From assembly GCA_032622095.1 (NCBI GenBank), contig CP136069.1, positions 3,189,566-3,253,565 on the forward strand: 64,000 nt of DNA. Direction: 5' to 3'. The notes under the pieces are model-generated. The model worked only from the letters and a program-made list of their open reading frames with translations, was not told the DNA's origin and did no database searches. Both the position numbers and the translations under genes were made by a program. This document shows positions 2,308-64,000 of this stretch, piece by piece. The first letter of the stretch is position 1. Each line of letters starts with the position of its first letter. This DNA comes from Siphonodentalium dalli. Its lineage: Eukaryota > Mollusca > Scaphopoda > Gadilida > Siphonodentaliidae.

Positions 2308-4823
2308 TTATTCCTGATGATTCTTACCGAGATGAATGAGAGCATCAAGAATGTATGAAAGCTGTTTGTATCGGAGGAGATAATCGAGTGATGTCCCGAC
2401 ATTACTTATTAACGCTCCATGATGATTCTTACCGAGATGAATGAGAGCATCGAGAATGTATGAAAGCTGTTTGTATCGGAGGAGATAATCGAGTGCTGTC
2501 CCGACATTACTTATTAACGCTCCATGATGATTCTTACCGAGATGAATGAGAGCATCGAGAATGTATGAAAGCTGTTTGTATCGGAGGAGATAATCGAGTG
2601 ATGTCCCGACATTACTTATTAACGCTCCATGATGATTCTTACCGAGATGAATGAGAGCATCGAGAATGTATGAAAGCTGTTTGTATCGGAGGAGATAATC
2701 GAGTGCTGTCCCGACATTACTTATTAACGCTCCATGATGATTCTTACCGAGATGAATGAGAGCATCGAGAATGTATGAAAGCTGTTTGTATCGGAGGAGA
2801 TTATCGAGTGCTGTCCCGACATTACTTATTAACGCTCCATGATGATTCTTACCGAGATGAATGAGAGCATCGAGAATGTATGAAAGCTGTTTGTATCGGA
2901 GGAGATTATCGAGTGCTGTCCCGACATTACTTATTAACGCTCCATGATGATTCTTACCAAGATGAATGAGAGCATCGAGAATGTATGAAAGCTGTTTGTA
3001 TCGGAGGAGATAATCGAGTGCTGTCCCGACATTACTTATTAACGCTCCATGATGATTCTTACCGAGATGAATGAGAGCATCGAGAATGTATGAAAGCTGT
3101 TTGTATCGGAGGAGATAATCGAGTGATGTCCCGACATTACTTATTAACGCTCCATGATGATTCTTACCGAGATGAATGAGAGCATCGAGAATGTATGAAA
3201 GCTGTTTGTATCGGAGGAGATAATCGAGTGATGTCCCGACATTACTTATTAACGCGACATTACTTATTAACGCTCCATGATGATTCTTACCGAGATGAAT
3301 GAGAGCATCGAGAATGTATGAAAGCTGTTTGTATCGGAGGAGATAATCGAGTGATGTCCCGACATTACTTATTAACGCTCCATGATGATTCTTACCGAGA
3401 TGAATGAGAGCATCCAGAATGTATGAAAGCTGTTTGTATCGGAGGAGATTATCGAGTGCTGTCCCGACATTACTTATTAACGCTCCATGATGATTCTTAC
3501 CGAGATGAATGAGAGCATCGAGAATGTATGAAAGCTGTTTGTATCGGAGGAGATAATCGAGTGCTGTCCCGACATTACTTATTAACGCTCCATGATGATT
3601 CTTACCGAGATGAATGAGAGCATCGAGAATGTATGAAAGCTGTTTGTATTGGAGGAGATAATCGAGTGCTGTCCCGACATTACTTATTAACGCTCCATGA
3701 TGATTCTTACCGAGATGAATGAGAGCATCGAGAATGTATGAAAGCTGTTTGTATCGGAGGAGATAATCGAGTGCTGTCCCGACATTACTTATTAACGCTC
3801 CATGATGATTCTTACCGAGATGAATGAGAGCATCGAGAATGTATGAAAGCCGTTTGTATCGGAGGAGATAATCGAGTGATGTCCCGACATTACTTATTAA
3901 CGCTCCATGATGATTCTTACTGAGATGAATGAGTGCATCGAGAATGTATGAAAGCTGTTTGTATCGGAGGAGATTATCGAGTGCTGTCCCGACATTACTT
4001 ATTAACGCTTCATGATGATTCTTACCGAGATGAATGAGAGCATCGAGAATGTATGAAAGCTGTTTGTATTGGAGGAGATTATCGAGTGCTGTCCCGACAT
4101 TACCTATTAACGCTTCATGATGATTCTTACCGAGATGAATGAGTGCATCGAGAATGTATGAAAGCTGTTTGTATCGGAGGAGATAATCGAGTGCTGTCCC
4201 GACATTACTTATTAACGCTCCATGATGATTCTTACCGAGATGAATGAGAGCATCGAGAATGTATGAAAGCTGTTTGTATCGGAGGAGATAATCGAGTGCT
4301 GTCCCGACATTACTTATTAACGCTCCATGATGATTCTTACCGAGATGAATGAGAGCATCGAGAATGTATGAAAGCTGTTTGTATTGGAGGAGATTATCGA
4401 GTGCTGTCCCGACATTACCTATTAACGCTCCATGATGATTCTTACCGAGATGAATGAGAGCATCGAGAATGTATGAAAGCTGTTTGTATTGGAGGAGATA
4501 ATCGAGTGCTGTCCCGACATTACCTATTAATGCTCCATGATGATTCTTACCGAGATGAATGAGAGCATCGAGAATGTATGAAAGCTGTTTGTATCGGAGG
4601 AGATTATCGAGTGCTGTCCCGACATTACTTATTAACGCTCCATGATGATTCTTACCGAGATGAATGAGAGCATCGAGAATGTATGAAAGCTGTTTGTATC
4701 GGAGGAGATAATCGAGTGATGTCCCGACATTACTTATTAACGCTCCATGATGATTCTTACCGAGATGAATGAGTGCATCGAGAATGTATGAAAGCTGTTT
4801 GTATCGGAGGAGATAATCGAGAG
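2308..4823 (-). repeat. 105-bp tandem array across the exon 15 donor, 24 copies
   Basis: Each unit is 63 bp of exon 15 end plus 42 bp of intron, with an intact CTCG|GTAAGAATC-type donor in nearly every copy. Because 105 is 35 codons and no stop occurs, the whole array reads open with exon 15. Variants (DY/DN, R/Q, A/S) are shuffled among copies; one copy carries an extra 18 bp near 3255. A decayed further copy at about 2270-2305 ends in TCTCG|GTATCA. Confidence 0.95.
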
Positions 4824-4956
4824 CGGATTTTGTACGATTTCCAAGAGTTCTCTCCTCGGTGGCCAATCTGTTCACTTCTAATATCCGCTGTCTCACGAGG
4901 CTCAATCGCTTGTTGTTTCTCGATTCTTTTCTTACTTTGAAGCCCCTCCATGCCGA
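4761..4956 (-). CDS. ASPM: ASPM exon 15, last IQ and start of C-terminal domain
   Basis: Acceptor TTGACCTTTCAG|TCGGCA; donor [26 protein letters not shown] completes the IQ begun in exon 14. Then [20 protein letters not shown] and [20 protein letters not shown] match the ASPM C-terminal helical region (HYLLTYKHLSAILEAL in human). It leaves one base. The last 63 bases and the donor are copied 23 more times downstream. Later C-terminal exons are not visible in the window. Confidence 0.93.
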
Positions 4957-7900
4957 CTGAAAGGTCAAGAAAGGTCAGTATAGAATAGAATAGAATAGAA
5001 TAGAATTTATTACCATAAAGGACCCCGAAGGGTAACATGTAGTGCGTAATCAAATTACACACAGATGAATGCAAATTCAAAAATAACATGCATAATATTA
5101 ATATATGATATTATAAGAAATGATAATAAGGCAGTTTTTAGGACGGATATCAGAATGGATACAAAGCAGTTGTCTTGAGAGGGCAAATGTCTGCTTACAA
5201 TGTACTTATGAATACTTGCTTGTGTTGAGACGAGGAAATCTTTAATAGAGATATTTAAATGAATCTGAAATTGATCAATTATAATATTTGTTTGGAGTTA
5301 CAGTGAATTAATATGACAGATGCATTCAGATAAGAATATATGTAATTATGTATTTTTCATATAACACAAGAAATGTCAGTATATAATGTATTCATGCCCG
5401 AGACTAAGATGCCTGTCCACAGAGGGTGTGAATTAAGTGATGCTATATCACATAGCGGGCTAGAATCACCAAATTCACCCTCTGGGGACCTCATTCTGCA
5501 TGGCCTATTGGCCTTATCTGCTATATGAGACAAAGACAAAGATTGAAGTTCCCAAATGGTGAATATTGTGATGTACACCCATTGGGAACCTCGATTATGC
5601 AATAAGTCATCTGCCAATTTGGGGATATAGAGAAACTAAACTAAAAAATAAATAGAATCTATGTAAAGAAGTTTCTATAGAAATTTTAAAAAGAAACTTT
5701 CCAGAGAAGATGAGGTCCCCACAATGTGAATTTGGTGATGCTGTTAGCGTCGCTGAATTCACCCTCCGGGGACCTCATTCTGCAAATGACAGACACGCTA
5801 TAATCAGGCTAATACGCTCCTGTATCTTTTTTTTAATTCTAAAGGTTTCCGGATTTATTATGTTTGTGTGTTTATGTACTCAACTTTTATTAGCCTGAAC
5901 CATTTAAAGACATATTATGGACTTGTTCGGGTGCGTGAAAATGATAAATTAGTACTCAGGCGCTATGCCAACTGGGGGAATGTAGCATTCTACTAACATC
6001 GCCCAAAATATCAAAGAAATCGACCATACCACTCCATAAAAAACACCGTCTGAACAACGCTCAATTGGAAATATTTACATCTCGATTCAGGACGCAACAA
6101 TTGGCGATAAACTAACGCCATTGGTATTCATTGCATTTAATATATATATAAGGCTGACGGTGTGTGTTGTAAATTTGGATTAATATTCATAAAAATAACT
6201 ACTTTGAGCAAGATTATTCTCCATTTCTAATTGATCACCTAACCGGAGTGTTTCACATCACTTTTAATAACACTTTCAGTGCCAAGTCCGATTTTTGTAT
6301 CAACCCATATTTCCTTGATCATTTTTCAAATTTATTGATTATAATAATGTGATACATTGATGGAAAGAGCTCTAAAATCGAACTTGGCACTGAAAGGGTT
6401 AATTTTGATATTTTTCACATAGAAAACAAACCTGAATAACAACTATAGCATTTCTTTTCGTTGCCATCGTTTTTCGGCAGAACCATTTCCGGATAGCGCA
6501 CTGAATACACTTAGCTGCGAATTCACGCCTTGCCTGGGATCGCCGGAAATACATCTGGATTTTAATTACAGCAGCGCGGCGTCTACAGAAGGATTTCCTT
6601 TCAAGGTATACTCTGAAACATCTCTGAAATAACAAGAAATCATGGCATTGAAATCCATGTAAAAAGGACGACGGCATGCACTATCCAGAACTCTATGTGA
6701 TGACTTATATGAATGTCAAGATTTAAATAACCATACATATTACATTAATATATGATTTTTCAAGTGGCCCATTCTCAATTTGGGTGAAATTTGAGTTACA
6801 TTAAGTACCCAACCCTTGGGTTGGAAATTCCAACTGGGGCTCAAATGAGTGGAACAAATAGTTCGCCCCTCCCATAATTTGGGTTGGAAATTATAATACA
6901 ACTGCACGTATTATAGCATATACGCGATTTGGTTTCCACCACATGTGGCTGGCCATTGGGAAACCCATTCTGGATGATAATTTTTATGAGATATTTTCAA
7001 AATAAATAATCTGATCTGCAGTGGATTTTTTGTCTTATGACTTCCCAAGGATGGTCGTTATAACTTTTACCACCAGTCGAGTAAAGTTTCTATAGCCTCA
7101 TTGGCACACCGTACGACTACTATATAGAACCTACTATTAATTATTAAATTTTTTAAATGGTCTTTCGGATCCCCAGTACATTGTGATTTGCTTTAAGTGT
7201 GCTATGTCGTTGGCAAAACATCAATAACTTTCGCGGGGAAATGCGCGTGCCAATATAACGTCGCTTTGGATACAACATATGACGTCGCCTAACAGTTTAC
7301 TGTAAAGTGTGACTGTGCTTTTACTAATTTACTAAACTAAAGAAAAGTTTATTTAGTGATATGACAAACATTTTAGATATTTACGAGATGAGTCACGCTG
7401 TTTTTGCGATGTGGCTAACGAATTTGTGCAGTTTTATTTTTTACGTAATTTCCCGAATGGCATAGCAACCCCGAGTCCGGTTGACAATATTTATGATTTA
7501 AGTAATGATTATTGTATAAATTATAAACCATGTAATACCTTCACGCAATGAATACCGCTGTTTTGGCTAAATGAAAAGTTACATTTTGTAGTTTTAATTT
7601 TATTGCAATGACGTTTCAAGATGGCGGCCCCTCAAATTCAAGATGGCGGCGCCCATGTTCGAAAACGAACTTAGTATAAGGACGACCAGCGCATATGTTG
7701 CTACGCAACACATGCGCGGCTGTTCTGCGCCCAGCTGGTCGTCCTTAAAAAATAGAACTCTCAAATTAATTAATCAAGAGCTGCAGCATAATTGCAATCA
7801 ACAGGTACAGTAATGCCCTAAATTATCGACTTCTTAACCACAGCTGAATTATGGGTAACTTTTCAGGATTTAGTCGGAAATATGGCTTGTTGCAATTCAT

Positions 7901-58900: not shown

Positions 58901-61900
58901 TAAGGCCATACACACTTAATAGTTCGTTTCTCAGGGATCGCTGCGTCCCCCAAAAACCTGCGCCTCCCCCTTATTTATTGGCACCTATAAAATAATAAAT
59001 ATATAAATACCGCATGTCCCAAAGCACCCCGGCCCGAATAACTCTTCTTAAAAGTTTACATACGTAAAGTGCAAATCTATCCGGCTAACCGGAATTTACA
59101 TTCACCAAGGGCGATAACTTCCGGTTAGCGACAAGATCAAAATGGCTACCTTGGTCAATATTTCTATCGGTGACCGATGTTGGACAATCATATCTGTCGA
59201 AAAGTCGAAATCCGTTCGTCAAATGGGGGAGGATTATATTGAGAAAACGAAAGATGTTGACGGTGCAAGCATCGGTGAATTTACGGTAGCGGTGGGGAGA
59301 ACAAAAACCGGCGATTTTGACGAACTTTCTCCGGAAATAAAGTGTGTGAGGTGATTGCAGTATTTGGAAGATACTTCAAAATTGTAATCGAAAACGATGT
59401 TCCACCGGCCGCCAATGTGAAAGTAACTGATGACGTGTTATCGATGATGATGACCAGTGGCAAAGAGATGGTTTTGACAAAAACTGTCAATGTAAAAAAT
59501 AAACCTGATGAGTTAACCAACTCATTCATTGATTGGTTGCAGGAGAAAAAAGTTGGTTTCCGACGGGATAGTCTGGACAGTGTCGGTCGACAGTTCGTAT
59601 CTAGTGTTTGTGATGCATTGTGGTATGTGGGGCCACACATTTCTAAACTAGAAGATAGAGCGTATCATGTTCCAGAATCACTTCGCAAGTTCTTTGGCTA
59701 TAACGACCCCAAAAAGTCAAAGCATGGAGTGCCACGACTAGACAGTCTGAAGCTTATAGATTTCACCGAGCAGTTGGGGAAAACGCTTGAGCAGCCTTTC
59801 CTGAAAGCTGAGTTGTGGAAGGAAATAAAAACAGCACTGTTTGATTTGACAGAAACCATTCATCTTAAACTGTCTCCTCTATACAACTTTATACCAATCT
59901 TTATTAAAAAATTAAGGGGATTATATGATGGTCAGCTGTCCTGTTTCACTATAGTGTCCATATCCAGTATTATTCCTTAATATGGACTCCGTTAAATATT
60001 ATATATATAAATACCTGCCTCACCACAAAATTAATTTGAAAAAAATAATAAATATAAATAACTGCCTCCCTCCCTCATCACTTTGAAAAAGAAAATCCCT
60101 GAGAAACAAACTATTAAGTTTATATGGCCTAATAAAGATGAAATAAAAGGGATGAACAAGTGAAGAAGAGAAACTCACGTTAATCTGTATCCGTCTTTCA
60201 AATCAGTGGCCAGATTCGACACTGAGAAGTCAAACTCATCCAGAGTTGTCTGCACATGGGTCACAGTTAGATCGAAGTAGGCGAGATGTTTAATGATGTC
60301 TCCCTCACCGCTCAGATAATCCCTCGAAAACAGAGTCAATAGTTCCTTACTCGACTGAAAAATACATAATCATTATACAGGGTTCATAACTTCATACAGA
60401 TAGTCTCTCAAAAAGACTCGCGGAGCCAACATCTCCTTTCACAGCAATTAAGCAACTGAAAACTACATAATAACCATACAGGTAATCTTACAAAATCAGA
60501 CTCGCAGAGCCAACATCGCCTTAACCCAACAAAACGGCCAAAAACGCCCAAATAAAGCTTCAACAGCCTAAAATATCTTCGGTCTGTTTCAATAACTAAA
60601 AAATTCTTTTTTAATACTTTTTACCATTTTTTCTTACATTTTTAAACAATTTTAATAATATTTTTCTACATTCTTTGTCAATTTTATCATTTTTAATATG
60701 TGTTAAGCGAATGCATTCTCTTATATATGCGAGGCGACCTATGGTCGACTCGCATATATAAGAGAATGTATTGGCACAGGGCCGTTCTATTGGGTAAAGG
60801 GTTAATGTCCGCTTCAATATCTTTCAGAATAAGGCAAAAATACCTGTCAATGTGTGTATAAACGAATGTGAGGCTTAAATTATTCCAACTAATGCCCAAC
60901 AAGAATAACATTCAAACGTACTTATGCCATTTTAAAAACAAAATCAGTCACCCCCCCCCCCCCCCCAGGAACTTACAAGAGAATTTATTTGCTCTCTTAT
61001 TACTAGTAATATAATCGTAAGTTGGGTTTTTCTCAAATAAAATGTCAATGTGGGATGTCCAATTACACTTTCACATGCCCATAATTTTACTGAGATGAGA
61101 AAGGTTTGAAATATATGTACCTTCAAATAGTTCAATATTGATTCAACGATCACAGTGACAATAAACATTTTGACAAGAAAAACAAGTGCAAATTAAAAAT
61201 TTGCGAGGGTATACAGGTGAGAGCATTTGATCCAATCTCCTGGGAGGGACTAAAAATAATGAATCTCCTGAGAAGGACTAAAAATAATGAATCTTCTAAG
61301 AAGGACTAAAAATAATGAATCTCCTGGGAAGGACTAAAAATAATGAATCTTCTGGGAAGGACTAAAAATAATGAATCTTCTGGGAAGGACTAAAAATAAT
61401 GAATCTCCTGGGAAGGACTAAAAATAATGAATCTCCTGGAAAGGACTAAAAATAATGAATCTTCTGGGAAGGACTAAAAATAATGAATCTCCTGGAAAGG
61501 ACTAAAAATAATGAATCTCCTGGAAAGGACTAAAAATAATGAATCTCCTGGGAAGGACTAAAAATAATGAATCTTCTGGGAAGGACTAAAAATAATGAAT
61601 CTCCTGGGAAGGACTAAAAATAATGAATCTCCTGGGAAGGACTAAAAATAATGAATCTCCTGGGAAGGACTAAAAATAATGAATCTCCTGGGAAGGACTA
61701 AAAATAATGAATCTCCTGGGAAGGACTAAAAATAATGAATCTCCTGGGAAGGACTAAAAATAATGAATCTTCTGGGAAGGACTAAAAATAATGAATCTTC
61801 TGGGAAGGACTAAAAATAATGAATCTCCTGGGAAGGACTAAAAATAATGAATCTCCTGGGAAGGACTAAAAATAATGAATCTTCTGGGAAGGACTAAAAA

Positions 61901-63075
61901 TAATGAATCTCCTGGGAAGGACTAAAAATAATGAATCTTCAGGGAAGGACTAAAAATAATGAATCTCCTGGAAAGGACTAAAAATAATGAATCTCCTGGA
62001 AAGGACTAAAAATAATGAATCTTCTGGGAAGGACTAAAAATAATGAATCTCCTGGGAAGGACTAAAAATAATGAATCTCCTGGGAAGGACTAAAAATAAT
62101 GAATCTCCTGGGAAGGACTAAAAATAATGAATCTCCTGGGAAGGACTAAAAATAATGAATCTCCTGGGAAGGACTAAAAATAATGAATCTTCTGGGAAGG
62201 ACTAAAAATAATGAATCTTCTGGGAAGGACTAAAAATAATGAATCTCCTGGGAAGGACTAAAAATAATGAATCTCCTGGGAAGGACTAAAAATAATGAAT
62301 CTTCTGGGAAGGACTAAAAATAATGAATCTTCTGGGAAGGACTAAAAATAATGAATCTCCTGGGAAGGACTAAAAATAATGAATCTTCTGGGAAGGACTA
62401 AAAATAATGAATCTCCTGGGAAGGACTAAAAATAATGAATCTTCTGGGAAGGACTAAAAATAATGAATCTCCTGGGAAGGACTAAAAATAATGAATCTCC
62501 TGGGAAGGACTAAAAATAATGAATCTTCTGGGAAGGACTAAAAATAATGAATCTCCTGGGAAGGACTAAAAATAATGAATCTTCTGGGAAGGACTAAAAA
62601 TAATGAATCTCCTGGGAAGGACTAAAAATAATGAATCTTCTGGGAAGGACTAAAAATAATGAATCTTCTGGGAAGGACTAAAAATAATGAATCTCCTGGG
62701 AAGGACTAAAAATAATGAATCTCCTGGGAAGGACTAAAAATAATGAATCTCCTGGGAAGGACTCAAAATAATGAATCTCCTGGGAAGGACTAAAAATAAT
62801 GAATCTCCTGAGAAGGACTAAAAATAATGAATCTCATGAGAAGGACTAAAAATACTAAATTTTGTTTTAAGATTCTCATAAACGATCTTTGTAAATTAGG
62901 CCATGATTGTATTACCTCAATCTCGTAGTCCTTACAAATCGTACCTTAACTTCAGAGTCCTTGCAGAACAAACAGGGGTTGTGGTCGATCAGCCTCTGTG
63001 ATTTAGCTGTGTCCAGGAAATAAACAAGCAAGATGAATCTCTTAAGTGTGTGTTCGGCAACAGCCTCTGCATAGC
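4761..63075 (-). CDS. ASPM: ASPM / abnormal spindle orthologue, partial, 15 exons
   Basis: Minus-strand gene; 15 exons join with matching phases into about 2,215 codons. ASPM proteins act at spindle poles, binding microtubule minus ends and calmodulin, and help orient the spindle. In order the exons give CH1 (exons 1-5), CH2 (exons 6-9), about 70 IQ motifs (exons 9-15, mostly exons 11 and 12) and the start of the C-terminal helical/ARM-like region (exon 15). Diagnostic stretches include [33 protein letters not shown] and [11 protein letters not shown]. Exon list: 62945-63075, 60179-60354, 56683-56816, 52901-52983, 49612-49729, 44765-44859, 41664-41853, 34400-34473, 30538-30738, 27142-27336, 21685-24201, 17411-19678, 14709-14783, 6432-6623, 4761-4956. 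The N-terminal ASH domain, start codon and C-terminus are missing from the window. Assignment is from recognised family sequence, not a search. Confidence 0.95.
4975..5100 (-). mobile_element. 3' tail of a non-LTR retrotransposon with (TTCTA)n
   Basis: Read on the minus strand, a segment with CCTTCGGGGTCCTTTATGG, then AATAAA, then about six TTCTA units. This looks like a LINE or LINE-mobilised SINE 3' end. The tail sits about 22 bp upstream of the exon 15 acceptor. No RT coding seen; 5' edge not defined. Confidence 0.55.
5405..5812. mobile_element. Family A foldback element, diverged
   Basis: Hairpin arms GGGACCTCATTCTGC at both ends and a middle with CACCCATTGGGAACCTCGAT and CAATTTGGGGATATAGAGAA. 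Confidence 0.75.
5904..6267. mobile_element. Family H TTAA element (reverse orientation)
   Basis: TTAAAGACATATTATGGAC ... GTGTTTCACATCACTTTTAA. Confidence 0.86.
6264..6402. mobile_element. Family D TTAA element
   Basis: TTAATAACACTTTCAGTGCC ... GGCACTGAAAGGGTTAA. Shares its left TTAA with the family H element before it; 30 bp from the exon 14 donor. Confidence 0.85.
6432..6623 (-). CDS. ASPM: ASPM exon 14, IQ motifs
   Basis: 64 codons, phase 0 both ends; acceptor TTGTTATTTCAG|AGATGT, donor GTTATTCAG|GTTTGTT. Holds [10 protein letters not shown] (end of a split IQ), [18 protein letters not shown] and [16 protein letters not shown], and ends VVIQ, again cut directly after the IQ Gln. A TTAA element (family D) ends about 30 bp past the donor. 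Confidence 0.92.
6680..7800. other. Intron DNA with small hairpins
   Basis: No exon. A hairpin on AAGGACGACCAGC and complement lies at 7678-7747, next to two 'tcaagatggcgg' repeats; 6780-6900 has a weaker foldback on CAACCCTTGGGTTG. Confidence 0.5.
7806..8022. mobile_element. Family F mariner-like foldback, complete
   Basis: TA|CAGTAATGCCCTAAATTAT ... GAGCATTACTG|TA. Almost the whole element is a hairpin: arms include CAGGATTTAGTCGGAAATAT and the centre CTCTCACTGAGAG. Confidence 0.9.
8130..8372. repeat. 31/43-bp tandem repeat
   Basis: CAGGTGATTGGTTAATATAT, AATCATATTGG with or without CAGCCTGG; about seven units. Confidence 0.92.
8465..10345. repeat. 'gaccttgacctt' dispersed repeat, split by the TTAA element
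   Basis: Units with GTGACCTTGACCTTCAA, TTTCAACAGAATCCAATAAA and GAGCGGACACGAAGG occur about three times (8740, 8910, 10190). A common type of repeat in marine invertebrate DNA. Confidence 0.7.
9057..10179. mobile_element. 1.1-kb TTAA (piggyBac-like) element
   Basis: Flanked by TTAA (9057-9060, 10176-10179). Ends share TCAATGACGTGATTTGACGT in inverted orientation. It interrupts a 'gaccttgacctt' repeat. No transposase ORF. Confidence 0.82.
10365..13790. repeat. 64-bp satellite, about 52 copies
   Basis: Unit: GACCCCCATGATATCTTGTA, CAAGTCACCTTGTGTATAAG, TCACTTTGTTCTCTGTATAA, TTAA. The C-run varies from 5 to 7; few other changes (T/C in 'cactttg'). Edge units carry a diverged GACGACCATGAAATC form, suggesting central homogenisation. 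Confidence 0.96.
13804..14232. mobile_element. TIR element, AAGGTACTCAATCCGA ends
   Basis: Left AAGGTACTCAATCCGAT, right complement ATCGGATTGAGTACCTT. No ORF; related DNA at 52440-52710. Confidence 0.8.
14280..14708 (-). repeat. 31-bp tandem array across the exon 13 donor, about 14 copies
   Basis: Minus-strand unit: AAATAATTTTGATTCAG|GTT, AGTTATTGTAT. Each carries the last 17-20 bp of exon 13 and the donor. Variants are GATA/GTTA after the donor. Confidence 0.95.
14709..14783 (-). CDS. ASPM: ASPM exon 13, short linker ending in IQ
   Basis: 25 codons, phase 0: acceptor TAATTATTTCAG|TTACAA, donor TTGATTCAG|GTTAGTT. Reads [20 protein letters not shown], then IILIQ, and is completed by [10 protein letters not shown] of exon 14 to form an IQ motif. 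The call rests on both splice sites, phase and this reconstitution. Its last 17-20 bases plus donor are the unit of the 31-bp array that follows. Confidence 0.8.
14853..15250. mobile_element. Family A foldback element, right end lost
   Basis: AAGCCTGCAAATAGTGTGTC, first hairpin, the usual middle, then the second hairpin cut at GCTATTTGCAGG and joined to a family F half. Confidence 0.85.
15251..15396. mobile_element. Family F foldback, left arm missing
   Basis: Loop GGCTTGTTGCCATTCATCGG, right arm to GGGCATTACTGTA. Confidence 0.8.
15397..16260. other. Intron DNA, no element recognised
   Basis: AT-rich. A short stretch near 15815-15950 resembles 42690-42830 (AAACCGCCATAAACAGAAAG), so an unnamed dispersed repeat is present. 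Confidence 0.5.
16270..17410 (-). repeat. About 28-bp minisatellite beginning at the exon 12 donor
   Basis: Plus-strand units such as CCCTCTAGGCTGGTCCTCTC then CCAAGTCA. Minus-strand units GGTGACTTGGGAGGGGACCA. The donor GTCAGTGGATCC leads straight into AGGGACCAGCCTAGATGGTG, a unit of the array. Interrupted by the family A element at 16977-17381. Confidence 0.85.
16977..17381. mobile_element. Family A foldback element
   Basis: CAAGTCTGCAAATAGTGTGT ... CATTCTGCAAATGACA; splits the minisatellite and ends 29 bp from the exon 12 donor. Confidence 0.85.
17411..19678 (-). CDS. ASPM: ASPM exon 12, second giant IQ-repeat exon
   Basis: 756 codons, phase 0 both ends; acceptor TTTATGTTTCAG|GCAAGC, donor ATGTCAAG|GTCAGTGG. 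About 28 IQ-like motifs starting [20 protein letters not shown]. It contains two local expansions: three 26-residue units around [20 protein letters not shown] (about 18160-18440) and three 29-residue units around [20 protein letters not shown] (about 17900-18140). The open frame continues past the donor into repeats, but homology and phase end at NVK. Confidence 0.94.
19832..20208. mobile_element. Family B TTAA hairpin element, reference copy
   Basis: TTAACCCTTTACCCAACAAA ... TCTGTTGGGTAAAGGGTTAA. Two near-perfect 70-bp palindromes on CCAATGCATTCTCTTATATA and complement, loops with GTCGACCATAGGTCGCC. Confidence 0.92.
20349..21567. mobile_element. hAT-like element, CAGGGTTC ends
   Basis: CAGGGTTCATACACC ... 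CGCGTACGAACCCTG with the sub-terminal TTCCATAACTTTT motif on both sides. The left end with its flank is present three times in tandem (20330-20540). Inside lies a foldback (20640-20790) with arms TTTGAGCC and AAATTCGATTTG. No clean target duplication. Confidence 0.65.
21685..24201 (-). CDS. ASPM: ASPM exon 11, giant IQ-repeat exon
   Basis: 839 codons uninterrupted, phase 0 both ends; acceptor TATTTCATTTCAG|AGCGCT, donor AAGCAG|GTTTGTAG. About 36 IQ-like motifs of the form (I/V)Q..(F/W/Y)R.(Y/W)..R(K/R), each a predicted calmodulin or myosin-light-chain binding helix. Between about 22430 and 23195 eleven nearly identical 23-residue units ([19 protein letters not shown]..) occur in tandem, far more alike than the flanking IQs. 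Functionally equivalent to the large IQ exon of vertebrate ASPM. Confidence 0.95.
22430..23195 (-). repeat. 69-bp coding tandem repeat (11 IQ units) in exon 11
   Basis: The period of 69 bp equals one 23-residue IQ unit. Variants are few and shuffled among copies (S/L before C, D/N/G in YR.R, V/L before TIQ), as expected from unequal exchange or conversion. Surrounding IQ motifs are diverged, so this block expanded recently. Confidence 0.92.
24265..24385. repeat. Imperfect tandem duplication upstream of exon 11
   Basis: GTGTTCTCAGGTAATTA and GAGAAATTG.A.GAGGGAGG occur twice about 75 bp apart. Confidence 0.75.
24867..25810. mobile_element. hAT-like element (family G), 944 bp
   Basis: TAGTGTTGAAACGATTAGCG ... 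GATTAATCGTTTCAACACTA, flanked by perfect 8-bp target duplication catatcta (24859-24866, 25811-25818). No transposase ORF. Confidence 0.93.
25819..26875. other. Intron DNA with one isolated family G terminus
   Basis: No exon or array seen. At 26812-26875 a lone family-G end (AATCGTTTCAACACTA) occurs without a convincing partner. Confidence 0.5.
26889..27050. mobile_element. Family B, one-hairpin fragment
   Basis: T-rich spacer, TTAAGCCAATGCATTC hairpin, CACAGGGCC end; about 90 bp from the exon 10 donor. Confidence 0.8.
27142..27336 (-). CDS. ASPM: ASPM exon 10, IQ motifs
   Basis: 65 codons, phase 0 both ends; acceptor TTTCATGCAG|GTGAAA, donor AAAATTCAG|GTCAGC. Contains [16 protein letters not shown] and [16 protein letters not shown], then ends AAAKIQ, splitting an IQ motif immediately after its Gln codon. 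The rest of that motif ([12 protein letters not shown]) begins exon 11. Confidence 0.93.
27502..27700. mobile_element. Family C TTAA element with internal repeats
   Basis: Starts TAACCCTTTCATAACGGGAG and ends GGCTCCCTGTGGGTTAA; CCCCATAGAGAGCCCCACAT is repeated about four times inside. Confidence 0.8.
27742..27910. mobile_element. Decayed family B element
   Basis: TTAACCCTTTTGTGACTGG then one eroded hairpin arm and T-rich spacer. Confidence 0.65.
28898..29095. mobile_element. Half B hairpin fused to a family A fragment
   Basis: GCCAATGCATTCTTTTATAT, GCGAGGCGACCTATG joined at 28937 to a family A middle (TCATCTGCCAATTTGGGGAT). Confidence 0.7.
29193..29627. mobile_element. Family A foldback element
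   Basis: CAAGCCTTCTTGAAATAGTG ... GACACTATTTTGAGGCTT with both hairpins and the usual middle. Confidence 0.85.
29702..30091. mobile_element. Family B TTAA hairpin element, full length
   Basis: TTAACCCTTTACCCAAAAGA ... TTTTGTTGGGTAAAGGGTTAA; opposite orientation to 19832-20208. Two B palindromes. Confidence 0.9.
30088..30471. mobile_element. Family H TTAA element
   Basis: TTAAAGTGATGTGAAACACT ... AATATGTCTTTAA; its first TTAA is also the last TTAA of the B element 29702-30091. Confidence 0.88.
30538..30738 (-). CDS. ASPM: ASPM exon 9, CH2 end and first IQ
   Basis: Acceptor CTTGTTATAG|GTGTCAGC; donor TTTAAG|GTGATC. Reads [18 protein letters not shown], then [20 protein letters not shown], the hallmark end of ASPM CH2, followed by the first IQ-like motif [14 protein letters not shown]. 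Exactly 67 codons, phase 0 both ends. Confidence 0.95.
31275..32249. mobile_element. Family F foldback split by insertion
   Basis: Arms TACAGTAATGTCCAAAGTAA and TACTTTGGACATTACTGTA; central loop carries the 802-bp element at 31352-32153. Confidence 0.85.
31352..32153. mobile_element. 802-bp TIR element nested in family F
   Basis: Perfect 16-bp ends CAGTCCTTTTAATTAG and CTAATTAAAAGGACTG; flanking direct repeat gaaata. No transposase ORF. Confidence 0.85.
32945..34030. mobile_element. TIR element with long inverted arms
   Basis: Arms about 60 bp: AGATATCGGTTGGGTTGATG then CTGTTTTGGACCGAGTCCC near 32963-33003, and its complement at 33970-34013. A hAT-like element sits inside. Confidence 0.7.
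33141..33691. mobile_element. hAT-like non-autonomous element, 551 bp
   Basis: CAGGGTTCGCGCTGG ... GGCAGCGCGAACCCTG with perfect 8-bp target duplication gtgatcga (33133-33140, 33692-33699). Sub-termini repeat TTTGCCAAAT. Confidence 0.92.
34149..34387. mobile_element. B/C composite hairpin element
   Basis: ACCCTGTGCCAATGCATTC hairpin, spacer, C segment ending GGGGCTCCCTGCAGGG. Its end is 12 bp downstream of the exon 8 donor. Confidence 0.85.
34400..34473 (-). CDS. ASPM: ASPM exon 8, CH2 linker
   Basis: A 74-bp exon: acceptor GTTCTTTTCTAG|AAAAAG, donor GAAAAG|GTAAATC. Reads [19 protein letters not shown], then LLYEK, matching the ELL.NEKKNF region preceding the GGIP motif. It joins exon 7 by completing a Lys codon and exon 9 in phase 0. 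A B/C hairpin element ends about 12 bp downstream of the donor. Confidence 0.9.
34529..34895. mobile_element. Family H TTAA element
   Basis: TTAAAGTGATGTGAAACACT ... CATAATATGTCTTTAA; lies about 55 bp upstream of exon 8. Confidence 0.88.
34980..35290. mobile_element. Family B element, diverged
   Basis: TTAATCCTTCCATGACTGGA, B hairpin with changed bases, long A/T spacer, truncated second arm. Confidence 0.65.
35320..35765. repeat. Family E repeat, two tandem units
   Basis: Two units with ACATTTTCAGATAAACAAAG and GATCCGATAACCCATGGTTG. Confidence 0.75.
35939..36154 (+). CDS. THAP zinc-finger first exon
   Basis: [15 protein letters not shown] opens the frame; [20 protein letters not shown] and NTYVCSK follow, then a donor CAAAG|GTAGGT. 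The pattern C-x4-C ... FP ... RW ... C fits the first three zinc ligands of a THAP (C2CH) DNA-binding domain; the final His would be on the next exon. THAP domains occur in host regulators and in P-element-type transposases. The exon lies between two halves of a family E repeat, so an origin in a transposon is plausible. Confidence 0.7.
36155..37735 (+). other. DNA downstream of the THAP exon, no further exon recognised
   Basis: AT-rich, no clear repeat. A second THAP exon beginning with the HF part of the zinc motif was expected but not found with confidence. Confidence 0.4.
37738..37945. repeat. Family E repeat, second half
   Basis: Ends ATTTGGATCGGGGTATAACT. Resumes a family E copy apparently interrupted after 35765, so 35766-37737 may be an insertion. 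Confidence 0.6.
38264..38594. mobile_element. B-C-B composite hairpin element
   Basis: TACCCTGTGCCAATGCATTC ... TGCATTGGCACAGGGTA with a C segment in the middle. The left hairpin has lost its loop (TATATATGCATTGGCC). Confidence 0.85.
39135..41058 (+). mobile_element. TIR element K1 carrying an unrecognised ORF
   Basis: Left AAGGCCACACAAAATCAATG then GTTTGTTTCTCAGGC; right GCCTGAGAAACAAAACATTG then TTTGTGTAACCT. Longer than K2 because of extra foldback DNA (40430-40710 and the palindrome at 40840-40945). Confidence 0.75.
39240..39899 (+). CDS. Element K1 protein, unknown family
   Basis: Open frame to 39899; similarity to the K2 protein starts near [12 protein letters not shown], so the real start may be a later Met (about 39375). 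Shared features: [15 protein letters not shown].., [25 protein letters not shown], then a stop where K2 continues for about 100 more residues, so K1 is shortened or the C-terminus is on another exon. Predicted soluble and charged. No transposase motif recognised. Confidence 0.55.
   Translation: MVRNFYGTFLFLRILLDLARNGNRVYPNFLCFRCVCIIFSTLNNFMPLLSIHIKHLTAILLDWTVISDYNEAGTLIELLRDQITKLKVVIDVKNVELDDLEIECFVGTNRTDDREFQRVAHSVALSVAVKDLVEEFGKYFKFKLSESSDKKNDNKNRTEDAFKMLMDKSKHRQDTVFLPEKVDGGNSKCRLFNDIIDMLEKNNVGWTADAVNTIGKYFE
41060..41580. repeat. Dispersed family E repeat
   Basis: Blocks TCCAACATTTTCAGATAAAC, GAGGATAACTCTTGAATGGA and GATCCGATAACCCATGGTTG recur in series. Ends CCCCATATCTTTTTGGGATG then GGGGTATAAT. 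Also at 35320-35765 and 37738-37945. Confidence 0.75.
41664..41853 (-). CDS. ASPM: ASPM exon 7, CH2 core
   Basis: Acceptor TATTTTTACAG|ATCGAG; donor TTTGGAA|GTAAGAAA. Reads [20 protein letters not shown], then YHPVLLP, the most conserved block of ASPM CH2. Phase 0 in; one base (A) out, completed by AA of exon 8. About 53 bp of the exon start plus its acceptor are repeated upstream as an 83-bp unit (41854-42010). Confidence 0.94.
41854..42010 (-). repeat. 83-bp tandem duplication across the exon 7 acceptor
   Basis: Upstream of exon 7 lies a copy of its first ~53 bp (AGAACTTCACGGTATCTTTC) with acceptor TATTTTTACAG, and a third decayed partial copy. Period 83 bp, the spacing between the two 'atctgtaaaaatac' blocks. 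Confidence 0.88.
42029..42611. repeat. 117-bp satellite made of family C TTAA elements, 5 copies
   Basis: Each unit is one family C element (TTAACCCTTTAGAGAGCCCC ... GGCTCCCTGTGAGTTAA) plus a constant 30-bp spacer (ACATTAAACCCTATATATCG). Nearly identical copies. Confidence 0.93.
42968..43115. mobile_element. Family A minimal foldback
   Basis: 148-bp single-hairpin form: CAAGCCTGCAAATAGCGTGT ... GACTATTTGCAGACTTG. Confidence 0.85.
43485..43822. repeat. Tandem repeat, 24/39-bp units
   Basis: AGCACAGAGAGTATGTTCAT, TGTAGC, with or without ATGTCACATTAAT; about 11 units. Confidence 0.9.
44267..44697. mobile_element. Family A foldback element, long complete copy
   Basis: CAAGCCTGCAAATAGCGTGT ... 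ACACGCTATTTGCAGGCTTG, 431 bp. A hairpin at each end surrounds a middle with CTAAAAACAATGTTAATTTG and CACCCATTGGGCACCTCGAT. Best reference copy of this family here. Confidence 0.92.
44765..44859 (-). CDS. ASPM: ASPM exon 6, start of CH2
   Basis: Reads [20 protein letters not shown], then [11 protein letters not shown], the first helix of the second CH domain. Donor AATGTTCAG|GTAAAT. Two possible acceptors lie 2 bp apart (TTACTTAG and TTAGAG). Phase with exon 5 favours the second, giving 44859 as the high edge. A family-A foldback element ends 67 bp downstream of the donor. Confidence 0.85.
44992..45175. mobile_element. Family F mariner-like foldback
   Basis: TACAGTAATGCCCAAAGTAA ... TTACTTTGGGCATTACTGTA with TA ends; variant with AAAGTAATTGACC arms. 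Confidence 0.88.
45555..45860. mobile_element. Foldback repeat and degenerate B hairpin
   Basis: 45560-45690 folds on arms CTCGTCCAGTAAATTAGGTC and complement; related to 20640-20790. 45786-45858 is a decayed B hairpin. Confidence 0.65.
45971..47110. repeat. Family A element expanded into a 56-bp satellite
   Basis: Starts as a normal family A terminus (CAAGCCTGCAAATAGTGTGT). Then about 19 units of GCAGAATGAGGTCCCCAGAG, GGTGAATTTAGTGATGCATC, CCCACATAGCAGGCTA follow, and a normal closing arm at 47060-47110. Two unit types (GAATGAGGTCCCC and GAATGTGGTACCC) are interspersed. Confidence 0.95.
47245..47340. repeat. 16-bp tandem repeat
   Basis: About six units of AGAGAGCGAAGATC with small changes. 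Confidence 0.85.
47548..47923. mobile_element. Family H TTAA element
   Basis: TTAAAGTGATGTGAAACACT ... ACATAATATGTCTTTAA; no ORF. Confidence 0.88.
48022..48275. mobile_element. Family A foldback element, short complete copy
   Basis: CAAGCCTTGAAATAGGGTGT ... CACCCTATTTCAAGGCTTG, two internal hairpins with arms GAATGAGGTCCCCAGAGGGT. Confidence 0.88.
48619..48848. mobile_element. Family D TTAA element containing a B hairpin
   Basis: TTAACCCTTTCACTGCCAGG to CCTGGCACTCAAAGGGTTAA; a complete B hairpin (48663-48740) is embedded. Abuts the exon 5 donor array. Confidence 0.85.
48854..49611 (-). repeat. 88/72-bp tandem array across the exon 5 donor, 10 copies
   Basis: Units carry the last 42 bp of exon 5 (GTGCACTACGTAAAGTATTC then AGTGATGATGTCAGAG) and the donor GTATGATG, then intron. 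Long units have an extra 16 bp (acccaatattatatga). The tenth copy is the exon itself. Confidence 0.95.
49612..49729 (-). CDS. ASPM: ASPM exon 5, end of CH1
   Basis: Acceptor TTTCTTTCAG|GTTAATATA; donor GTCAGAG|GTATGATG. It reads [18 protein letters not shown], then [16 protein letters not shown], the basic helical linker after CH1. Phase 0 in, one base out. Unusually, both ends are copied into tandem arrays: the acceptor end in a 50-bp array upstream (50110-50810) and the donor end in an 88/72-bp array downstream (48854-49611). A 357-bp hairpin element lies 20 bp upstream of the acceptor, between exon and acceptor array. Confidence 0.9.
49750..50106. mobile_element. B-C-B composite hairpin element, complete
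   Basis: ACCCTGTGCCAATGCATTC ... GGCACAGGGTTAA: a B hairpin at each end with an inverted C segment (CAGGGAGCCCCACACATATA ... TGTCTGGGGCTCTGTATGGG) in the centre. Inserted 20 bp upstream of the exon 5 acceptor, inside the acceptor array. Confidence 0.85.
50110..50810 (-). repeat. 50-bp tandem array across the exon 5 acceptor, about 14 copies
   Basis: On the minus strand each unit holds TTTCTTTCTTTCAG|GTTAAT and about 25 further exon 5 bases (ATACTGTTCGACGTCGGGAA), then TTCAATGAAT-type spacer. Copies vary (CGAC/CTAC, TTC/CTC). The true exon is separated from the array by the hairpin element at 49750-50106. Confidence 0.95.
50889..51340. mobile_element. Family F foldback plus 148-bp local duplication
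   Basis: Complete foldback 50889-51104 (TACAGTAATGCCCTAAATAA ... GGGCATTACTCTA). Its right arm and the following 80 bp ('gtataatattactacatatc' ... 'ctactagagcggg') are repeated directly at 51184-51340. Confidence 0.8.
51340..52440. other. Intron DNA, nothing assignable
   Basis: About 1.1 kb without a recognised element, exon or array. Open frames here are short and show no family resemblance. Confidence 0.5.
52440..52710. mobile_element. Degenerate copy of the 13804-14232 TIR family
   Basis: Contains GAACCCACCCATCAAAGCTC and flanking blocks that are the reverse complement of 14090-14200. Ends not resolved. Confidence 0.5.
52901..52983 (-). CDS. ASPM: ASPM exon 4, CH1 (DGHREKT motif)
   Basis: A short 83-bp exon found by phase and homology. 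Acceptor TTTATTTTCAG|ATAAAA, donor ACCTTCCAG|GTATAG. It reads [19 protein letters not shown], then LWNVIFTFQ, matching the invariant HREKTL..LW..I..FQ segment that ends the helical core of ASPM CH1. Two bases complete the codon begun in exon 3; it leaves in phase 0. Confidence 0.92.
53022..53165. repeat. Short tandem repeat, about 4 copies
   Basis: Imperfect units around GGAATGGAAACCGTAACTCT and ATTCTGAAG, 40 bp upstream of exon 4. Confidence 0.8.
53300..53918. mobile_element. Family F mariner-like foldback, interrupted
   Basis: TA-ended copy (TACATTAATGCCCTAAATAA ... GGGCAATACTGTA) split by another element at 53438-53880. Derived from the same foldback as 7806-8022. Confidence 0.8.
53438..53880. 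mobile_element. 443-bp TIR element nested in family F
   Basis: Ends CCAAGGCTGAAAATAA and TTATTTTGAGCCTTGG, flanked by the direct repeat ctgtgg (53432-53437, 53881-53886). No coding potential. Confidence 0.75.
54224..54434. mobile_element. B/C composite hairpin element, left-truncated
   Basis: Begins inside the C segment (AACATGAGCAGACGACACTC), then GGGGCTCCCTGCAGGG and a complete B hairpin ending GGCACAGGGTAA. Confidence 0.8.
54520..54755. mobile_element. Family B hairpin element, left end missing
   Basis: Two B palindromes and right end CGTTCTGTTGGGTAAAGG; lacks the left TTAACCC terminus. Confidence 0.8.
55073..55293. mobile_element. B/C composite hairpin element
   Basis: TACCCTGTGCCAATGCATTC hairpin followed by a family-C segment (CAGAGCCCCAGACAAACATG ... 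GGGGCTCCCTGCAGGG). Ends without the second B hairpin. Confidence 0.8.
55596..55993. mobile_element. Family B TTAA hairpin element, full length
   Basis: TTAACACTTTACCCAACAAA to TTGTTGGGTAAAGGGTTAA. Holds two 70-bp near-perfect palindromes (CCAATGCATTCTCTTATATA...) separated by a T-rich spacer, plus the 'ggtctgtctcaataac' segment shared with 19832-20208 and 29702-30091. TTAA ends and CCCTTT termini suggest piggyBac-type mobilisation. Confidence 0.88.
55994..56376 (+). pseudogene. LINE reverse-transcriptase C-terminal remnant
   Basis: Open frame ending with [20 protein letters not shown], then [13 protein letters not shown] and [14 protein letters not shown], typical of the region after the RT domain in non-LTR retrotransposons. 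5' truncated; it abuts the end of the TTAA element at 55993. No catalytic motif remains. Confidence 0.6.
56683..56816 (-). CDS. ASPM: ASPM exon 3, CH1 middle
   Basis: Acceptor TATATGCCCAG|GCGAG; donor TCATTAG|GTAATTATT. It reads [19 protein letters not shown], then [18 protein letters not shown] and DKGVSL, characteristic of ASPM CH1. It takes one base from the preceding split codon and leaves one base (G) for the next. A family-H TTAA element starts only about 22 bp upstream of the acceptor, so it may supply part of the branch-point region. Confidence 0.93.
56839..57163. mobile_element. Family H TTAA element
   Basis: TTAAAGTGATGTGAAACACC to CATATGTCTTTAA; same family as 5904-6267, 30088-30471, 34529-34895 and 47548-47923. 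Sits about 22 bp upstream of the exon 3 acceptor. Confidence 0.85.
57606..57778. mobile_element. Family A foldback element, truncated
   Basis: CAAGCCTTGAAATAATGCGT, then the GAATGAGGTCCCCAGAGGGT hairpin arms; broken off after a second arm starts. Confidence 0.8.
57877..58776. mobile_element. hAT-like element (family G), non-autonomous
   Basis: Starts TAGTGTTGAAACGATTAG and ends CGATTAATCGTTTCAACCCTA. Flanked by a perfect 8-bp target duplication, ggcataat (57869-57876 and 58777-58784), diagnostic of hAT-type insertion. Sub-terminal CGACTAGTCG palindromes recur. No transposase ORF. Confidence 0.9.
58902..60130 (+). mobile_element. TIR element K2 carrying an unrecognised ORF
   Basis: Terminal inverted repeats of about 35 bp: left AAGGCCATACACACTTAATA then TTCGTTTCTCAGGG; right complement CCCTGAGAAACAAACTATTA then TATGGCCT. 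A homologous element lies at 39135-41058. The interior encodes the protein listed at 59142-59980. No DDE or other transposase motif was recognised, so superfamily is open. Confidence 0.75.
59142..59980 (+). pseudogene. Element K2 protein, unknown family, frameshifted
   Basis: Two overlapping frames: 59142-59354 starts [20 protein letters not shown]; the sequence continues in another frame from about 59342 ([14 protein letters not shown]..) to 59980. Similarity to the K1 ORF runs across the switch, for example VDVK/VNVKNK, (F)[16 protein letters not shown] and (D)SVGRQF, so the frame change is probably a mutation, although an unseen intron is possible. C-terminal part has ALWYVGPH and [15 protein letters not shown]. 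No signal peptide, zinc finger or catalytic triad was evident. I do not recognise the family. Confidence 0.6.
60179..60354 (-). CDS. ASPM: ASPM exon 2, CH1 first part
   Basis: Acceptor TATTTTTCAG|TCGAG; donor ATTAAC|GTGAGT. It reads [19 protein letters not shown], later [20 protein letters not shown] and KDGYRL, the start of the ASPM calponin-homology fold. Phase 0 in, phase 2 out, completed by the first base of exon 3 (ACG, Thr). No repeat touches its ends; TIR element K2 ends 48 bp downstream of the donor. Confidence 0.93.
60521..60805. mobile_element. Family B TTAA hairpin element, shortened copy
   Basis: Begins TTAACCCAACAAAACGGCC and ends TTGGGTAAAGGGTTAA. It retains only one of the two internal hairpins (GCATTCTCTTATATATGCGA and complement). 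Confidence 0.8.
61215..62860. repeat. 28-bp tandem array, about 58 copies
   Basis: Unit contains AAGGACTAAAAATAATGAAT and CTCCTGGG. Lies in the intron between exons 1 and 2, ending about 85 bp from the exon 1 donor; it does not contain exon sequence. Variation is mainly C/T in 'atct(c/t)ctggg'. Confidence 0.93.
62945..63075 (-). CDS. ASPM: ASPM exon 1 (of window), entry to CH1
   Basis: Reads ...[19 protein letters not shown]..., then [14 protein letters not shown], a hallmark ASPM segment just before the first calponin-homology domain. The acceptor is ATCATTTTAG|GCTATG and the donor AAG|GTACGATTTG. The exon enters with two bases completing a codon and leaves in phase 0. Its acceptor and first dozen exonic bases are the unit of the 34-bp array that begins at the exon edge and runs to the window end. 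Upstream exons lie beyond 64000. Confidence 0.92.
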
Positions 63076-64000
63076 CTAAAATGATAAACAAATTAACTCT
63101 CCACATAGCCTAACATGTTAGACAAATTAACTCTCCACATAGCCTAAAATGATAAACTGATTAAACCCCCGCATAGCCTAAAATGATAAACAAATTAACC
63201 CTCCGCATAGCCTAAAATGATAAACTGATTAAACCCCCGCATAGCCTAAAATGATAAACAAATTAACCCTCCGCATAGCCTAAAATGATAAACTGATTAA
63301 ACCCCCGCATAGCGTAAAATGATAAACTGATTAAACCCCTGCATAGCCTAAAATGATAAACCCCCGCATAGCCTAAAATGATAAACTGATTAAACCCCTG
63401 CATAGCCTAAATTGATAAACTGATTAAACCCCCGCATAGCCTAAAATGATAAACTGATTAAACCCCCGCATAGCGTAAAATGATAAACTGATTAAACCCC
63501 CGCATAGCCTAAAATGATAAACTGATTAAACCCCCGCATAGCCTAAAATGATAAACTGATTAAACCCCTGCATAGCCTAAAATGATAAACTGATTAAACC
63601 CCCGCATAGCCTAAAATGATAAACTGATTAAACCCCTGCATAGCCTAAAATGATAAACTGATTAAACCCCTGCATAGCCTAAAATGATAAACTGATTAAA
63701 CCCCCGCATAGCCTAAAATGATAAACTAATTAAACCCCCGCATAGCCTAAAATGATAAACTGATTAAACCCCCGCATAGCCTAAAATGATAAACTGATTA
63801 AACCCCCGCATAGCCTAAAATGATAAACTGATTAAACCCCCGCATAGCCTAAAATGATAAACTGATTAAACCCCCGCATAGCCTAAAATGATAAACTAAT
63901 TAAACCCCCGCATAGCCTAAAATGATAAACTGATTAAACCCCTGCATAGCCTAAAATGATAAACAAACAAACCCTCCGCATAGCCTAAAATGATAAACAA
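63076..64000 (-). repeat. 34-bp tandem array across the exon 1 acceptor
   Basis: At least 27 copies, continuing past the window. On the minus strand each unit contains TTTATCATTTTAG|GCTATG plus about six more exon-like bases, that is, the exon 1 acceptor and first exonic bases, followed by a TTTAATC-type spacer. Copies fall in a few sub-types, such as CGGGGG or CAGGGG after GCTATG. Confidence 0.93.

Follow-up and report, generated by a model that had tools for sequence, protein, structure and literature searches.

Tandem arrays over exon-intron borders of ASPM in the scaphopod Siphonodentalium dalli: probable minisatellites of the mirage kind

Tandem repeats that run over exon-intron borders have been described before, and the closest described system is that of the lancelets, where they were named "mirages" in the Adh3 gene and were later reported in the globin genes BflGb6 and BflGb9, in troponin C and in PGBD5, with units of 10-72 bp in Adh3, 60 and 108 bp in PGBD5 and 150-160 bp in the globins, as given in the accessible parts of those papers (PMC3087553, PMC3902484). 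According to the same parts, the authors regard the Adh3 data, along with RT-PCR on the globin genes, as suggesting that regular splicing goes on undisturbed (PMC3087553, also PMC3902484). Human genes in segmental duplications carry variable minisatellites at exon-intron boundaries, which were sought via copy-number differences between paralogues and were tied, in the available text of that study, to new introns and alternative transcripts (PMC2812944). Intron gain by tandem duplication is represented, in the accessible portion of a further source (PMC4974935), by Rogers' AGGT model, ATP2A1 and the potato RdRp gene; in potato the duplicated stretch, a single duplication, also spans an existing intron/exon border, and a new intron may come from one duplication or, in fission yeast, from several exonic repeats. 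Among molluscs, abalone has a 27-bp intronic minisatellite, whose location relative to borders is not stated in the accessible text (PMC6905558), and no mollusc border array was found among the matches listed in a literature search outside which most subscription papers fall.

Here we consider a window, by which we mean the whole stretch of 64,000 nucleotides analysed (C9:3189566-3253565, in an assembly of 2.2 Gb and nine contigs), the minus strand of which encodes most of ASPM. A tandem unit containing an exon/intron border is found in seven arrays within this window and in four outside it. As in the lancelet mirages, the unit straddles a donor or an acceptor, it is repeated in tandem and many copies keep GT or AG, and the ASPM unit lengths are bracketed by those in the accessible lancelet descriptions; unlike those cases, the host is a mollusc and not a cephalochordate, there are seven in one gene, and they are described here from one assembly. 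With the human repeats, as far as the available text of that study goes, they share the feature of boundary minisatellites able to change gene structure; in ASPM no new intron is seen. With the intron-gain cases, as the accessible text presents them, they share tandem duplication including splice signals, whereas in ASPM one end of an existing intron is multiplied. No new intron between two copies of an exonic segment is seen among the ASPM border arrays; their copies lie within one intron beside the border, and those at exon 7 are intronic and out of frame. The first-pass annotation of this DNA had mentioned duplication of AGGT-containing segments as a route to new introns, which does not describe this gene, in that the introns already exist and the copies stand on their inner side. 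Nor was the Introner-like pattern of related copies dispersed among introns found, the seven border units being mutually unrelated. The ASPM arrays probably belong to the known mirage kind, apparently in a new phylum.

The ASPM exons were located by tblastn with homologues, and splice sites were called by eye and script. The model has 15 exons, all with GT-AG ends and consistent phases, and comprises 6,663 bp in 2,220 codons with no stop; at 6,663 of the 64,000 bases, it bears out the earlier statement of 15 exons making up about a tenth of the window. Further ASPM exons adjoin the window on both the upstream and the downstream side. When the CH region was searched, the best nine matches were all from molluscs, and in the tree of this region the window sits beside seven bivalves with support of 93/84 (below the star level of the tool) and is enclosed by a bivalve-gastropod set of 13 rows with support of 96/91. 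On this tree we reject a lancelet origin and regard the DNA as molluscan. Rfam gave no match on the window at the gathering threshold, and Pfam gave none on six other open frames of the window. The exons are as follows.

62945..63075, minus strand: exon 1 as numbered in the window, in the CH domain region (tblastn, GT-AG model)
60179..60354, minus strand: exon 2 (tblastn, gene model)
56683..56816, minus strand: exon 3 (tblastn, gene model)
52901..52983, minus strand: exon 4 (tblastn, gene model)
49612..49729, minus strand: exon 5 (sequence reading, gene model)
44765..44877, minus strand: exon 6 (tblastn, splice-site calling, gene model)
41664..41853, minus strand: exon 7 (tblastn, gene model)
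34400..34473, minus strand: exon 8 (splice-site calling, gene model)
30538..30738, minus strand: exon 9 (tblastn, gene model)
27142..27336, minus strand: exon 10 (tblastn, gene model)
21685..24201, minus strand: exon 11, IQ motifs (gene model)
17411..19678, minus strand: exon 12, IQ motifs (gene model)
14709..14783, minus strand: exon 13 (sequence reading, gene model)
6432..6623, minus strand: exon 14 (tblastn, gene model)
4761..4956, minus strand: exon 15 (tblastn, gene model)

TRF reported 102 rows in the window, which merge into 38 arrays covering 26.6% of it. Six of the 30 real ASPM borders lie inside an array, namely the acceptors of exons 1 and 7 and the donors of exons 3, 5, 13 and 15, and a seventh array, of 50 bp, is built of exon 5 acceptor copies with the real acceptor outside. 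Both kinds of border are therefore affected (donors of exons 3, 5, 13 and 15; acceptors of exons 1, 5 and 7), and the array copies, as read in the sequence, carry the exon end together with GT or AG. The seven border arrays, all called by TRF, are these.

63069..63998, minus strand: 34-bp array, about 27 copies, exon 1 acceptor; reaches the window edge
56634..56711, minus strand: TRF period 35 bp, 2.2 copies, exon 3 donor
50124..50814, minus strand: 50-bp array, 14 copies, exon 5 acceptor copies
48881..49653, minus strand: 72/88-bp array, 10 copies, exon 5 donor
41787..42007, minus strand: 83-bp unit, three copies including the exon's own, exon 7 acceptor (TRF extent 41810-41994)
14288..14733, minus strand: 31-bp array, 14 copies, exon 13 donor
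2315..4821, minus strand: 105-bp array, about 24 copies, exon 15 donor

The exon 3 array holds two donors 36 bases apart, and about 390 bp with two foldback pairs separate the 50-bp array from exon 5. The exon 7 array extends past its TRF limits; a third, outermost copy, 12 bases shorter, starts at 42007 after its own AG, and the intronic copy adjoining the exon is a degraded copy of its first 67 bases, with which it aligns without a gap and agrees at 54 of the 67 positions. Read off this alignment, the exon 7 unit would consist of about 16 intron and 67 exon bases. The first-pass annotation had listed six arrays containing exon ends together with their splice sites, and TRF confirms all of them (105, 31, 88/72, 50, 34 and 83 bp), but the 50-bp array lacks the real exon 5 acceptor and the exon 3 donor array of period 35 had been missed. 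In pairwise comparison no pair of the seven border units rose above the 95% shuffle level; because the units are mutually unrelated, the border-copying events look independent, much as that annotation had held. Three further cases were left out of the border-array count: the exon 11 donor has a degenerate copy 65 bp downstream (25/36 bases), a 28-bp array at 16270-16975 matches the intron that follows exon 12, starting at +14 from the donor, and the exon 1 donor has a possible copy (22/36 bases).

Several other repeats occur in and near the gene. In one short foldback element, CCAATGCATTCTCTTATATATGCGAG and its reverse complement face each other across 15 bases. This element is present as 18 pairs and four single arms in the 64 kb, with 40 hits window-wide (e.g. 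19976-20042, 49758-49824 and 50032-50098), and the two foldback pairs that stand between the 50-bp array and the exon 5 acceptor belong to it. A second foldback family, CAGAGGGTGAATTTAGTGA, has 49 hits, at 46000-47066 and dispersed (e.g. 1193-1434, 17019-17357 and 44591-44653); one copy separates the exon 12 donor from the 28-bp array, and 19 of the 49 hits are units of a 56-bp array that apparently expanded from a single arm of the foldback. At 10365-13739 an intron holds 3.4 kb of tandem repeat (64 bp x 52), many units of which contain a 16-bp subrepeat. Within the IQ exons there are arrays of 69 bp x 11 (22418-23190), 81 bp x 3 (18199-18445) and 87 bp x 3 (17897-18156), which look like recent IQ-repeat expansions. 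Outside the window, on the minus strand, a 33-bp unit is repeated at least 30 times across the stop codon in the last exon of ASPM (L013:1-976, C9:3179566-3180541), and the array reaches the end of the stretch taken; a coding/non-coding border has been copied there like the splice borders.

The count of border arrays in the window can be held against quite different expectations. If expectation is taken from array coverage, 8.0 of the 30 borders should lie in arrays against the six observed (P = 0.85). If, instead, each array is collapsed to one unit (the founder null), six units contain a border against 1.1 expected (P = 7e-4), or seven against 1.1 with the displaced 50-bp array added (P = 7e-5). 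We prefer the founder null and reject the coverage null, since every array has its origin in a single ancestral stretch. Under the founder null, four or five of the 13 arrays with at least five copies hold a border, against 0.44 expected. A per-position test, using 36-base windows and at least 25 matches to a local copy, scored 7/30 borders, compared with 8.6% of the 3,812 positions used as intron controls, and per-position local alignments over 18 settings scored 6-9 of 30 against 2.9-4.5 expected (P 0.014-0.09). The excess in the window is present by the fitting, founder null and modest by the broadest test, and the window was chosen for showing it. The earlier claim that existing borders were copied into arrays stands on TRF and the gene model, and such cases exceed expectation in the window when the founder null is applied. 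The accompanying argument, that border hits should be rare given the small exon content, is not the right test, because arrays cover 26.6% of the window and coverage thus predicts more arrayed borders than are seen. The founder null and array coverage differ sharply, and the choice between them matters for any genome-wide test.

For a sample outside the window, exon matches elsewhere in the genome were collected by searches with CAMTA, myosin V and myosin X proteins and with the kinesin family, and three sets of stretches were taken: 20 with a length of 10 kb, another 20 with lengths of 1.9-3.1 kb and, for kinesin, 40 of about 0.75 kb. In the first two sets, 38 of the 40 stretches contained 72 exon matches, which gave 133 scripted borders (101 myosin, 17 ASPM outside the window and 15 CAMTA); removal of L013 and L030 left 131, which with 76 script-called kinesin borders make 207. 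This sample is small, drawn from few gene families and not random over the genome (40 of the 123 kinesin matches were taken, and the myosin matches were picked selectively from lists), its borders come from a rough script, and only TRF-reported arrays were counted in it, degenerate copies being outside the count. Raw array matches at borders numbered four in the first two sets and two in the kinesin set. Inspection by eye removed two of the first four as border arrays: at L013 the array covers the ASPM stop codon instead, and at L030 the acceptor was miscalled. A call at L046, where the array ends before reaching the acceptor, was rejected too. True border arrays outside the window come to 4/207 (about 2%) against 4.0 expected from founder units, an observed/expected ratio of about 1 with a 95% interval of 0.27-2.5. 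All four are at donors, in two kinesin and two myosin genes.

L028, myosin donor: 67 bp x 2
L042, myosin donor: 21 bp x 2; exon part only about 4 bases
L075, kinesin donor: 60 bp x 3
L078, kinesin donor: 90 bp; runs off the fetched end, copy number a minimum

Directly past the duplicated myosin donor of L028, a different 77-bp tandem repeat starts (L028:4281-4585), giving two repeats in succession at one border. Near misses at L009, L020 (two), L034, L039 and L046 were not counted. Seventeen ASPM borders were called outside the window, one of which is the stop-codon call, and none of the 16 others lies in an array. The comparison of 6/30 borders in the window with 4/207 in the sample gives a Fisher P of 4e-4, a value inflated by how the window was picked. 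Border arrays with at least five copies number 4/30 in the window against 0/207 elsewhere as scored, the copy number at L078 being a minimum. Arrays cover 26.6% of the window, 11.3% of the larger stretches and 3.3% beside kinesin exons, the last figure not being comparable with the 10-kb stretches because the kinesin flanks extend only about 280 bp on either side. Exon borders show no detectable hot spots in this sample, and the ASPM window is an outlier that was picked as odd-looking. The first-pass annotation had called for a test of whether arrays are enriched at splice junctions across the genome and had suggested that borders may be unusually prone to slippage; in this sample of genes from the same genome the count equals the founder expectation, and the suggestion is not supported.

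We consider it probable that these arrays are border-spanning minisatellites of the mirage kind, the products of ordinary minisatellite birth, tolerated at borders. Suppose that a short stretch straddling an exon edge by chance undergoes tandem duplication, and that the resulting array then expands and contracts as any minisatellite would. The copy touching the exon body, namely the 5'-most donor or the 3'-most acceptor, would still be a usable border, and the remaining copies, on the intron side, would become intron and drift. Continued splicing at that usable border would explain why such arrays are tolerated. For the choice of the nearest splice-site copy we invoke exon definition together with the lancelet work; the spliced copy would be the one nearest the exon, and the arrays would probably be neutral. 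We attribute the high count in the window to chance, given how many arrays the gene holds, together with the choice of a striking window. We note that one neutral rate fits both the window and the sample only if the window was picked, because the density in the window exceeds both the 4/207 of the sample and the founder null.

Selection on the copies themselves offers another way of looking at the arrays. The first-pass annotation had considered that they might be kept as splice-site ladders supplying alternative borders, and the splice dinucleotides are indeed intact in 65/68 copies across five arrays, with GT invariant in 23 copies of the exon 15 array. These 88/91 intact copies are, however, no clear excess, because about 84/91 would be expected without selection (arithmetic from per-base rates), and the dinucleotides show no clearly better conservation than the remaining bases of the arrays. 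Moreover, none of the 60 scored alternative copies in five of the seven arrays keeps the frame open, and therefore a splice ladder cannot be what is kept in those five; as a general account, we regard it as very improbable. The border-array periods of 31, 88, 50, 34 and 83 are not divisible by 3, and the wholly exonic arrays have periods of 87, 81 and 69, all multiples of 3. Frame-open alternatives exist only in the two-copy exon 3 array (1/1) and in the 105-bp array (23/23), where an 888-aa frame at 2308-4974 is open throughout. The exon 15 array might be translated, its inner or last donors lengthening the C-terminal part of ASPM by 35-residue units, but 105 is divisible by 3 with a one-in-three chance, and one open founder opens all copies. 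The intron-derived part of that array carries nine non-synonymous variants and one synonymous, against 100/135 possible changes being non-synonymous; because this gives no sign of protein-level constraint, the open frame looks due to one open founder. In addition, molluscan homologues (e.g. Haliotis and Lottia) have (D/E)VATRLS directly after the HL motif, and the next ASPM exon (L013 9583-9807) reads DAATRLS. Translation of the array is, in our judgement, quite improbable.

The crowding in the window invites explanations of a different sort. A gene-specific excess in ASPM, whether through a local process (germline transcription, replication or repair) or through a high array birth rate, would fit the six to seven border founder units against 1.1, the four to five of 13 high-copy arrays against 0.44, the Fisher contrast with borders elsewhere and the richness of the window in arrays relative to both the larger stretches and the kinesin flanks. 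Yet the window was chosen for this very feature out of an unstated number of windows, the per-position test is weak (P 0.014-0.09), and the 16 ASPM borders outside the window (one more call being the stop codon) are all free of arrays; we hold such an excess to be unlikely, if worth keeping in mind. A reading that joins this to the previous one, with ASPM borders arrayed many times oftener than elsewhere via a gene-specific process and the exon 15 array perhaps reaching the protein as a variable 35-residue run, seems to us rather doubtful. Exon borders in general might be hot spots of tandem duplication, for example through splice-linked fragility, as the founder excess in the window and the several lancelet genes described in the accessible parts of those papers (PMC3087553, PMC3902484) could suggest. 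That is distinctly unlikely in view of the four cases against 4.0 expected at 207 other borders, and the roughly sixfold excess of the window falls outside the ratio interval of 0.27-2.5. Tandem arrays are also often misassembled, but an assembly artefact is scarcely credible here, since the copies differ by scattered variants, the 72/88 units run in a non-trivial order and short two- or three-copy cases occur in other genes (L028, L042 and L075).

Lastly, ordinary minisatellite birth tolerated at borders, which we favour, has consequences beyond this gene. Border-spanning repeats in print come, as far as the accessible texts go, from lancelets, from human duplicated genes and, as a single duplication, from potato (PMC3087553, PMC3902484, PMC2812944, PMC4974935). 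The mollusc cases in ASPM, kinesin and myosin genes, at the rate that tandem duplication by itself would give, suggest that no special border mechanism is needed, and that border arrays should occur wherever minisatellites arise at a high rate in a genome. If the crowding of border arrays in ASPM is a true excess, this gene would allow the duplication of borders to be followed.
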